Assembly (NCBI GenBank): GCA_937931165.1
Contig: CALHCI010000031.1
Location: 1-64,000 of the forward strand
Direction of reading: 5' to 3'
DNA length: 64,000 bases
Origin: an uncultured Granulosicoccaceae bacterium
GTDB lineage: Bacteria; Pseudomonadota; Gammaproteobacteria; Granulosicoccales; Granulosicoccaceae
The translations under genes were made by a program, and so were the position numbers. The notes below the pieces were generated by a model, which saw only the letters and a list, made by a program, of their open reading frames with translations, had not been told where the DNA came from and ran no database searches. This document shows positions 18,740 through 21,810 of the stretch, one piece after another; position 1 is the first letter of the stretch, and every line of letters begins with the position of its first letter.

Positions 18740-18940
18740 TTGAATACTTCCAAAACCGTTACCGGTGCGGCAAATCAGTCCCCGGCAGTTAAAAAGCACA
18801 TCCAATCTCAAGCGTCGAATACAACAACAGGCGCAGCAAACCAGTCACCGTCAGTGAAGAAGCATGTAAAAACTTCGTCGAGTACAACGGGTGCTGCCAA
18901 CCAATCCCCCAGTGTAAAGAGACACCTGCAACAGCAGTAA
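18740..18940 (+). CDS. 66-residue triple-repeat peptide
   Basis: The peptide contains three copies of TGAANQSPxVK[K/R]H (residues 8-20, 30-42, 50-62) joined by Ser/Thr/Gln-rich spacers. It has no cysteine, signal peptide or membrane helix and is strongly basic. The TTG start has AGGAG seven bases upstream. The repeats differ at many third codon positions yet keep the same residues, so the amino-acid sequence appears selected. The DUF6065-like gene starts about 20 bases downstream with its own ribosome-binding site, suggesting one operon. Possible roles are a modified-peptide precursor or a trivalent linear-motif scaffold; neither is shown. Confidence 0.75.
   Translation: MNTSKTVTGAANQSPAVKKHIQSQASNTTTGAANQSPSVKKHVKTSSSTTGAANQSPSVKRHLQQQ
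18761..18925 (+). repeat. Three in-frame 39-bp coding repeats with synonymous divergence
   Basis: Units at 18761-18799, 18827-18865 and 18887-18925 encode the same 13-residue motif. Units 1 and 2 differ in nine of thirteen codons, eight of them silent. The serine of unit 2 is TCA while in unit 3 it is AGT. This is the opposite of a recent tandem duplication. Confidence 0.9.
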
Positions 18941-18956
18941 AATCGAAGGGGAGTTG

Positions 18957-19763
18957 ATGATGGAAACAGTTAAGAAACAATTCGACACTGATGTTAAAGA
19001 GCAATCTACACATCAACCTATTATCAGTTTCTATAAGGCTTACCCGGATTCACTCCCGCCTATGGCTGCCGATCGCTCTGCGCTCGGCAGCATTCCCACC
19101 CAGGCCTATCAATACTGTGAAGCAGTAACAACAGCATCAGCGTTCGGGTGGTATGCCTTTCCTGCCGCTTCAGTAACGCTGACTTTTGACGGGGTTGATG
19201 TTTATTTGGTTGAAGAGGGTCAACGAAGAAAATTCTCCGTCCTTCAACTGGATGAGATGGACAGCTGGTGGAATTGTCATTGCCCTTCACACTTGCAGGA
19301 TATGGCACCCCCCTTCATTACCAACCTCGGGATACCCGGCTATGTACAGATATGGTCCGGCCTGCTGGTAGAAACCCGCAAGAGCTGGAGTACTCTGGTG
19401 CGTCCAATTGCCAATACACCAATCAGTAACCAGTTTTTTTGTTTTGAAGGTATGATTGAAACAGATTCCTACTCGCCAGCCCCGCTGTTTATAAATCTGA
19501 AAATTCAGGTGACCAATACACCGGTAGAATTTTCACATCTGGAACCGCTGTTTCAAATACAGCCCATTCACCGATCGTGCTACAGTAAAAAATCCCTAAA
19601 CGACTTTAACAGCAGCAATATCGATAACCACAGCGATATGACCGACCTTCATTGGCATCGCTATTCAAACACTGTAAGAAAAGTCGATCCTCGAACCGAT
19701 GACCATCGGACTGGCCAGTACGCAACCTCGACCCGAAAACGAAGTAAACGAGAAACTCAGTAG
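18957..19763 (+). CDS. DUF6065-like protein
   Basis: This protein of about 268 residues is soluble. It has the pattern I associate with DUF6065: an FYKAYPDSLPPMAADRSALG block, then YCEAVTTASAFGWYAFPA, then GYVQIWSGLLVETRKSWS and LVRPIANTP, with a late LFQIQPIHR. No catalytic motif is known to me. Start candidates are TTG 18954, ATG 18957 and ATG 18960; the AAGGGGAG upstream spaces best for 18957 or 18960. The C-terminal tail is basic and ends inside a 15-bp tandem repeat. It lies just behind the triple-repeat peptide and may act on or with it (inference). Confidence 0.75.
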   Translation: MMETVKKQFDTDVKEQSTHQPIISFYKAYPDSLPPMAADRSALGSIPTQAYQYCEAVTTASAFGWYAFPAASVTLTFDGVDVYLVEEGQRRKFSVLQLDEMDSWWNCHCPSHLQDMAPPFITNLGIPGYVQIWSGLLVETRKSWSTLVRPIANTPISNQFFCFEGMIETDSYSPAPLFINLKIQVTNTPVEFSHLEPLFQIQPIHRSCYSKKSLNDFNSSNIDNHSDMTDLHWHRYSNTVRKVDPRTDDHRTGQYATSTRKRSKRETQ

Positions 19764-19787
19764 CGAGAAACTCAGTAGCGAGAAACT
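19749..19787. repeat. 15-bp tandem repeat across a stop codon
   Basis: The unit cgagaaactcagtag occurs twice exactly and a third time in part (cgagaaact). The TAG stop of the DUF6065-like gene lies within the first unit. It probably arose by slippage and also separates two convergent genes. Confidence 0.9.
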
Positions 19788-19799
19788 AAGTTTTATGCG

Positions 19800-21473
19800 T
19801 TATTCGAACGGCACACCAGCACGGGCAAGCCTGTCGGCTATCTGTCTGCCACTTTGATAAGCCGCGTTTGGTGAGTTTGAAAGATAACTGCTGGTCGTAA
19901 ACATAGGGTCACTTTCCAACAGCTTTCTGGCACTTTGCTGCGCTTTCTCAGTTTTACCCAGGTCCATTTGTATTGCCACTAACGTACGCAGGTTAGAGGT
20001 ATGCTGAGGATTTAGTTCAAAAGCCCTGTCTGCATGAAGCTCGGCATTTTCATAGTCATCTATTGAATAGTAGGCAGCAGCGGCACAGGTATGGAACATG
20101 TTAAGTTGCGGATCAAACGGGGACAGGCTCAGCGCCTTATTGGCGCACTTAATGGCTTCGTGGCCCCGGCCCTTATAAGAGAGCACCGCCGCCTTGTATG
20201 CATAGGTCAACGGTTCATTAGGATTATATTTTTCTGCCCGGTTGTAAATATCAAGACCATTTTCCGGGTTGCGATTGAGTTGTGTTTCAACCAGGCCGCT
20301 GACTGTCAGCGCCAGAGAGTTTCGCGGGTCTGCTTCAAGTGCACGATTAAGGAAGTGCTCGGCGGCAGCCTTCTTTTCTTCGATGCCACTGTTCCAGCCG
20401 CCCTTGCGATTTAATTGCAAAACATACCAGTGCGCAAGTTGCGCGTTTACTGTTGTGTGTGCCGGGTATGACAGAAGAATTTGCTTAAGCGCCGTTCGGG
20501 CTTTAATGAAACCGGAATCGACGCGACTATGCATATTGTAGATACCTGCGACCAGTTTGGTATGCATGGTCAGGCTATCAAGCGGTTCAAAGCGGGCACG
20601 CTTTACCTCCTGAGCAATAATTGAATCTCCGGTGCGATAGATTAATTCATCGGTTAATTCATCTTCTTCACGAAGTAATGCATCGACGGAACAAGGCAGC
20701 TCGCTCGCCCAAATTACCTCAGAGCTGACGCAATCTGCGAGCTCGACCAACAGCTTAAGATGACCTTTGTGGCAAAAGTAGCTACCGGACATCACATAGT
20801 CTGTACCAAGCTGATCAGCAATTTGCCTGAGACTCCAGTCTACATTGCGAAGCTTGTTAGTACTTAGTCTTGAGATCACGTTAAAATGCGATGAACGGGA
20901 TAAGCCGGCTATGACGCTGGCAGCAAGCATCTCTCCAATGACTACTTCAGAGTCATGACTGGAGCCGTGGTATCTGAATGGAATAATCGCGATGGTCGGG
21001 CTGGAATTATCAGTAGCGCGGACCGGCCACAAACGAACACCAACTCCATTTGCCTCATTTGCCGCCTCCCGGCTGGCAATTCGGGGCTTTACTTTCGGCG
21101 TGGCACTGGTGGGTTCACGAATTTCGAAGCTTGCGGTGCTCAGTGATTCAAAAGTTGCAATGTAATTGCCAGCCGGTACATCGATACGAATTGAATCTCT
21201 TTTGCCGACGCCCAGATAGTATTTGTCGAGAGCACGGCGCGCGTGGCGGGCAATGTTGCGCACATAGGGGTCTGATGGATCAAAGCCGTCCCCTTTGCCA
21301 AACGCTTCTACTGCGATGTTGTAAGAGCGAATGGTGTCCTCGCCGGACAGCGTCTTGTTTACCACATAGGAAAGAAATGTTTTAAGTCGTCCGGACTTTT
21401 TAAATTCCGGAGCACAGAGCAGCTTCTCTAGTTGCGAGTTAACCTGCTCGCTCCAGGTACTTGTTTCTGGCAA
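19800..21473 (-). CDS. Winged-helix / FlgO-like / TPR regulator
   Basis: This 557-residue protein has an N-terminal domain (residues 8-112: RLKTFLSYVVNKTLSG, YNIAVEAFGKGDGFDPSDP, RHARRALDKYYL) typical of CadC-like or adenylate-cyclase-associated winged-helix sensors. A FlgO-like domain follows (TIAIIPFRY to about residue 290), then at least five TPR repeats (residues 340-520). No membrane helix is evident, so it is probably a cytosolic signal-responsive regulator. The TTG start has GGGAG seven bases away. It converges on the DUF6065-like gene with a 36-base gap; a regulatory link to that locus is only a guess. Confidence 0.75.
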   Translation of the reverse strand: MPETSTWSEQVNSQLEKLLCAPEFKKSGRLKTFLSYVVNKTLSGEDTIRSYNIAVEAFGKGDGFDPSDPYVRNIARHARRALDKYYLGVGKRDSIRIDVPAGNYIATFESLSTASFEIREPTSATPKVKPRIASREAANEANGVGVRLWPVRATDNSSPTIAIIPFRYHGSSHDSEVVIGEMLAASVIAGLSRSSHFNVISRLSTNKLRNVDWSLRQIADQLGTDYVMSGSYFCHKGHLKLLVELADCVSSEVIWASELPCSVDALLREEDELTDELIYRTGDSIIAQEVKRARFEPLDSLTMHTKLVAGIYNMHSRVDSGFIKARTALKQILLSYPAHTTVNAQLAHWYVLQLNRKGGWNSGIEEKKAAAEHFLNRALEADPRNSLALTVSGLVETQLNRNPENGLDIYNRAEKYNPNEPLTYAYKAAVLSYKGRGHEAIKCANKALSLSPFDPQLNMFHTCAAAAYYSIDDYENAELHADRAFELNPQHTSNLRTLVAIQMDLGKTEKAQQSARKLLESDPMFTTSSYLSNSPNAAYQSGRQIADRLARAGVPFE

Positions 21474-21733: not shown

Positions 21734-21810
21734 TGGCACGCCCGGAAGGATTCGAACCTCCGACCACCTGGTTCGAAGCCAGGTACTCTATCCAGCTGAG
21801 CTACGGGCGC
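21734..21810 (-). tRNA. tRNA-Arg (anticodon TCG)
   Basis: The reverse strand folds as a full 77-nt tRNA: acceptor GCGCCCG pairing with CGGGCGT, D arm AGCTCAGCTGGATAGAG, anticodon loop CTTCGAA flanked by CCTGG/CCAGG, T arm with GGTTCGAATCC, and an encoded CCA end. The anticodon TCG reads CGA arginine codons. Confidence 0.97.

Follow-up and report, generated by a model that had tools for sequence, protein, structure and literature searches.

A repeat-peptide gene paired with DUF6065 genes in Proteobacteria

What is the role of a 66-residue peptide, built from three copies of one short unit, whose gene lies directly before a gene of the DUF6065 family? The two genes are neighbors in a contig of an uncultured Granulosicoccaceae bacterium, whose 64,000 analyzed nucleotides are here called the window. 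A first-pass annotation made from the letters alone suggested either a multi-core modified peptide with its processing protein or a trivalent binding scaffold. Our comparisons leave little doubt that peptide and DUF6065 protein belong together, and they point to an undescribed peptide-plus-partner system, possibly one that yields a signal or a natural product.

Table 1. Features of the window at and around the repeat-peptide gene
Feature	Position	Strand	Basis
Upstream neighbor, rhodanese-like plus P-loop	17511..18608	+	syntenic in close relatives alone
Repeat peptide, 66 aa, three units	18740..18940	+	ORF call, translation; L028 orthologue
TGAANQSP(A/S)VK(K/R)H units	18761-18799, 18827-18865, 18887-18925	+	repeat peptide ORF
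DUF6065 protein (PF19541 subfamily), about 267 aa	18957..19763	+	Pfam, AF2, Foldseek
CadC-like regulator, linked accessory, not proven part	19800..21473	-	convergent with DUF6065

The repeat peptide gene in the window

The peptide reading frame starts with TTG, is preceded by ACAGGAG and encodes MNTSKTVTGAANQSPAVKKHIQSQASNTTTGAANQSPSVKKHVKTSSSTTGAANQSPSVKRHLQQQ, confirming the three TGAANQSPxVKKH units read at first pass; the first unit begins seven residues past the start codon. The distance to the DUF6065 gene, put earlier at about 20 bases, measures 16-19 nt to two ATG starts (18957 and 18960). These are preceded by AAGGGGAG, and each gene indeed has its own ribosome-binding site. The peptide carries no Cys, signal or membrane helix, as had been stated, and no hydrophobic stretch (maximum Kyte-Doolittle value over 15 residues, -0.19).

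The codon differences noted earlier were confirmed in full. Of the 13 codons, 9 are not the same in units 1 and 2, with 8 of the changes silent, and a serine codon changes from TCA in unit 2 to AGT in unit 3. By the Nei-Gojobori method, pS between window units is 0.83, 1.13 and 1.02, which is saturated, while pN is only 0.034, 0.110 and 0.113. The ratio dN/dS between repeats is thus far below one, and the proposal of selection on the peptide, as opposed to fresh duplication, stands. In L028, the nearest gene-bearing relative and a member of the same genus, the peptide is equally long and has three units, with ATG replacing TTG; over the whole reading frame, pN is 0.18 and pS is 0.80 relative to the window.

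It is hardly credible, then, that the array is a functionless product of replication slippage or chance, or a translated regulatory leader. Arrays at three other loci (L064, L034 and L065) have been homogenized recently at the DNA level, as slippage would predict, but silent sites between the window units are saturated while residues are kept, and both motif and position are common to distant classes of bacteria. A promoter and terminator scan performed no better on the real sequence than on shuffles.

Distribution of the pairing

DUF6065 matches were found in 11 of 57 genomes, including that of the window. Ten carry the peptide-linked kind, and the eleventh (G046) has a weak partial match (E 6e-4). 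At each intact locus of the peptide-linked kind in these ten genomes, a small repeat- or unit-bearing ORF lies directly upstream, with units that vary in sequence and number: three copies of TGSANQSP, two of AMGFANQPT, one of GMGGVLQSPAVKKH, two of SMGSGVKSPAIKKH, about seven of TTGAGTKSCSS and one of MRLGARSSAFRP. A plasmid search for relatives returned two Rhizobium records and no others, and both carry three VHIANKSPAF units 16 nt ahead of the DUF6065 gene.

A one-genome-per-species scan with a 12-row alignment yielded 171 relatives, of which the best 80 were read. Loci occur in Rhodospirillales, Acetobacteraceae, Sneathiella, Reyranella and kin, Bradyrhizobium, Roseibium, Hydrogenophaga, Variovorax, Ramlibacter, Granulosicoccaceae and Arenicellales. 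Inspection by eye and by script identified an upstream small ORF with related units at about 73 of 82 DUF6065 loci from Alpha-, Beta- and Gammaproteobacteria, a figure that involves some judgement because the unit lists were curated by eye after the automatic choice of peptide ORF had taken shadow frames at several loci. Eight of the 82 loci have no detectable peptide, and one more (L077) is interrupted by a contig end.

Two scores set these upstream ORFs apart from their surroundings. At 57 of 82 loci the upstream ORF has a motif-blind self-repeat score of 45 or more, compared to 2 of 82 for downstream and 5 of 82 for far-upstream ORFs on the same strand; the opposite strand gives 11, which are partly shadows of the same repeats. 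Scored with a motif matrix, 41 of 82 loci have two or more upstream units, against 0 of 82 each for shuffled peptides, the opposite strand and the downstream side. Since the same loci served to train this matrix, the unbiased self-repeat score is the better evidence. Repeat peptides do stand beside other DUF6065 genes, and their presence in three classes marks the pairing as a real system. With dN/dS far below one as well, neither of the refuting conditions set at first pass applies.

Several loci have irregular forms. In one genome, a DUF6065 remnant disrupted by an internal stop (L014, G012:C6:12470-12670) shares a contig with an intact copy about 15 kb away, and another contig carries a third, different DUF6065. 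Runs of N interrupt the arrays upstream of DUF6065 at L061 and L091, as expected from assembly collapse or masking, and unit counts there may be too low. At L054 (4648-5856), two successive open frames with RFGxGGEAPSLKA-type repeats precede DUF6065, forming an array that is much longer or interrupted.

The unit and its possible fate

The general unit is roughly [KR]-[VI]-x-[LIMF]-[GA]-x-x-[SA]-P-x-[FLV]. The alphaproteobacterial version is approximately D-x-[GS]-[KR]-[VI]-[RKH]-[LIMF]-[GA]-x-x-[SA]-P-x-[FL], and that of the window group is T-G-A-A-N-Q-S-P-x-V-K-K-H. Among curated units, only Gly, present in all 70, and Pro, present in 64 of the 70, come close to universal. No Cys, Ser, Thr, Asp, Glu, Tyr or Trp is invariant across them, and the units of 13 loci wholly lack Ser, Thr and Cys. 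The 15 peptides examined are mostly basic and polar, with a membrane-like stretch in none, and no N-terminus common to peptides across loci was found that could represent a leader. No Pfam or NCBIfam family covers the repeat peptides; matches to LpxI_N, LiaG, HIF-1 and others appear to be repetition artefacts, most of which contain no self-sufficient passing stretch.

Purifying selection acts on the units of four further arrays (L036, L059, L067 and L082) as well as on those of the window. Moreover, unit type tracks the sequence identity of the DUF6065 partner, with a Mantel r of 0.70 against a maximum of 0.18 in 2000 permutations; among distant pairs alone r is 0.19, and part of the correlation may reflect common descent. 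The last unit stops exactly after P-x-[FLI] in 11 loci (L045, L057, L058, L064, L065, L070, L083, L088, L089, L091 and L097), which is expected if that end is a functional C-terminus. Peptides with a single unit, about 22-37 aa long, are encoded at L071 (the shortest, 22 residues), L073, L078, L086, L103 and L107, and therefore one unit can suffice.

These features, along with the upstream peptide at most DUF6065 loci, lead us to favor, tentatively, a multi-copy precursor or ligand that is handled by DUF6065 and whose units become a signal or an exported product. We infer a module of two genes: the peptide, a leaderless series of short recognition units, would be the dedicated ligand and substrate of DUF6065. 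The DUF6065 protein, probably an oligomer like trimeric dUTPases, would hold one extended unit in each binding site, and the array would release short peptides that are all alike and have [SA]-P-x-[FLV] at their end. In some lineages the product would be exported by a neighboring EamA or MFS carrier, and a neighboring TolB/TPR regulator with a variable output domain (winged helix, BTAD, cyclase or histidine kinase) would read it. Unit copy number could set the dose, which would explain why the number varies freely while the unit is conserved. Against the precursor reading, the module encodes no protease and no secretion signal, and eight DUF6065 loci lack a detectable peptide.

The main rival is a peptide that stays intact: its short linear motifs would form a flexible array drawing several DUF6065 molecules, perhaps together with the regulator, into a larger assembly or condensate, with no processing. 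We regard this as possible but rather unlikely. Near-universality of Gly and Pro only is typical of a binding motif and not of a reaction site, and the mostly basic, polar, leaderless character of the peptides, their freely varying repeat number and the predicted likeness of the partner to homotrimeric dUTPases (see below) are all compatible with such an array. However, the peptides of several lineages have a single unit and would be unable to cross-link anything, and the exporters that frequently neighbor these genes would be left unexplained. The trivalent scaffold suggested at first pass is rejected because unit number is not conserved: it ranges from 1 to about 19 across relatives, and three is not defining.

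The DUF6065 protein and neighboring genes

The window protein matches PF19541 above the gathering threshold (E 5.9e-07, 29.6 bits, cut-off 26.6), although only in part (residues 131-213, 83 residues). Residues invariant in an alignment of 79 DUF6065 sequences include C53, G63, W143, N152, E163, G164, E167-T168-D169 and W232. A canonical member of PF19541 from a gammaproteobacterium (G047) shares the conserved Cys, Gly-Trp and [IV]VETD segments, but it has no repeat peptide in view and is missed by the A2 profile at E <= 1e-10.

The AlphaFold2 model of the protein (pLDDT 92.3, pTM 0.83) predicts a dUTPase-like beta-clip fold. Foldseek returned 78 PDB matches at E <= 1e-3, and the best 50 of the 78 are all dUTPases; the top match, a trimeric dUTPase, has E 6e-6, probability 1.00 and TM scores of 0.35 (query) and 0.74 (target). 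Among viral models, uncharacterized phage proteins (BFVD A0A6J5MPI8 and A0A6J7WVY4) are nearest, followed mostly by dUTPases. Sequence profiles do not reproduce this likeness. Alignment by hhalign to 29 dUTPases was not significant (probability 1%, P 0.05) and covered only the region around motifs 3 to 4, and a PDB sequence search with the DUF6065 profile gave no credible match, those to VirB11 being chance. DUF6065 also differs from dUTPases in having about 110 extra N-terminal residues and a paired peptide. The precursor reading is weakened in that DUF6065 is only a putative catalyst, with a dUTPase homology that profiles leave unsupported.

Much as dUTPases and the Stl repressor affect one another, the peptide could inhibit or activate a DUF6065 enzyme that works on nucleotides, the two forming a regulatory or toxin-antitoxin-like pair, but this is improbable. 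The predicted fold and the reading of two small adjacent genes as one unit would suit such a pair, as would a conserved G-[IV]-[IV]-E-T-D-x-[YW] segment that resembles dUTPase motif 3 (G-x-I-D-x-D-Y-x-G). However, the catalytic Asp position of this motif is Glu throughout DUF6065, motifs 2 and 5 (R-S-G and GGFGxTG) are not recognizable, and antitoxins do not usually come as multi-copy arrays. A Sneathiella DUF6065 matched no phage record, and 80 pattern matches in viral contigs included no relative. At the end of the window gene (19749-19793), three tandem 15-nt copies of CGAGAAACTCAGTAG, the third diverged, extend across the stop codon of DUF6065, with the result that the in-frame stop is repeated too.

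Exporter genes bear on what might become of the units. At about a dozen loci an exporter gene lies directly downstream of DUF6065 on the same strand, encoding an MFS (L025, L035, L044 and L082), EamA (L046, L048, L066, L087 and L098), CDF (L060 and L101) or TauE (L056) carrier; those of L035, L066, L098 and L060 were assigned by sequence likeness. This arrangement favors the precursor reading, but the window has no adjacent exporter, and we know of no EamA, CDF or TauE carrier that exports peptides.

A classical RiPP pathway, in which DUF6065 would chemically modify each core of a multi-core precursor to give an exported natural product, also draws on these exporters and on the small precursor gene directly upstream of one candidate enzyme. 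To our knowledge, the predicted DUF6065 fold resembles no RiPP enzyme. Graspetides likewise have short ribosomal peptides with repeated cores and an adjacent processing gene (PMC8939145), but here there is no conserved leader or follower recognition sequence, no conserved reactive residue, and no ATP-grasp, second maturation or other known class-defining enzyme. Indeed, a scan of 78 neighbors found no known RiPP modifying enzyme among the 25 commonest Pfam families. We judge the RiPP pathway improbable; of the multi-core peptide with its processing protein proposed at first pass, the precursor part may hold and the classical RiPP part is not borne out.

The precursor reading also gains from the regulator. 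The window protein has a winged-helix-like N-terminus, a TolB-like middle and a TPR C-terminus, and a structure search places CadC, including its periplasmic domain, close to it among generic TPR matches. Unlike CadC, it has no evident membrane helix among its predicted elements, and the output domain varies between loci, with N-termini of BTAD, cyclase-like or histidine kinase type in some relatives. Within its own genome, nothing else matches the C-terminal half of the window protein at E <= 1e-10, and in G003, G004, G009 and G011 the best match to this half adjoins DUF6065. Relatives flank 36 of 80 loci, even though genomes have only 1 to 17 strong copies, with 2 to 17 in each of ten genomes searched. 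On the other hand, the regulator is missing at more than half of the loci and its orientation varies; neither regulator nor exporter is universal. All neighbor counts are rough lower bounds because the codon-position gene caller, used in place of six-frame ORF clustering that was noisy in high-GC loci, misses genes.

RRNPP systems resemble this arrangement in that a small propeptide gene, reportedly often with internal repeats, is found close to a TPR regulator that carries a DNA-binding domain (PMC10075063). However, the conserved partner here is DUF6065 and not the TPR protein, and the hosts are Proteobacteria instead of Firmicutes. RRNPP propeptides have 10-100 aa and a Sec signal, whereas the window peptide fits in size and lacks the signal; the adjacent RRNPP receptor has 250-500 aa, whereas the TPR protein here mostly has 550-880 aa and a TolB-like domain. 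Since some defining features of RRNPP systems, of RiPPs and, at the sequence level, of dUTPases are absent, we file the module under no known kind. This agrees with the first-pass view that no system of such form had been described: none was found in Pfam, NCBIfam or the literature searched (preprints and most subscription journals lay outside its scope), where no paper contained 'DUF6065' and only analogies emerged. A new Gram-negative system for peptide communication or product formation, in which a leaderless multi-copy precursor is served by a new beta-clip processing or carrier protein (DUF6065) and by an exporter that varies, and is read by a TolB/TPR receptor whose outputs are interchangeable, is conceivable but doubtful.

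Through the pairing, a domain of unknown function acquires a partner, and a peptide family missing from Pfam and NCBIfam is defined. If units are released and sensed, they would constitute a peptide signal of Proteobacteria unlike the Firmicutes systems in build; if they are only bound, the peptide would be a naturally occurring multivalent array of motifs that has a reader of its own. In both cases, synthetic peptides allow a direct test of motif and reader.

Upstream of the peptide gene, the rhodanese-like gene, whose product we take to be a tRNA 2-selenouridine synthase, is outside the system. Past the regulator, a tRNA-Arg (TCG) gene occupies positions 21734-21810 on the minus strand.
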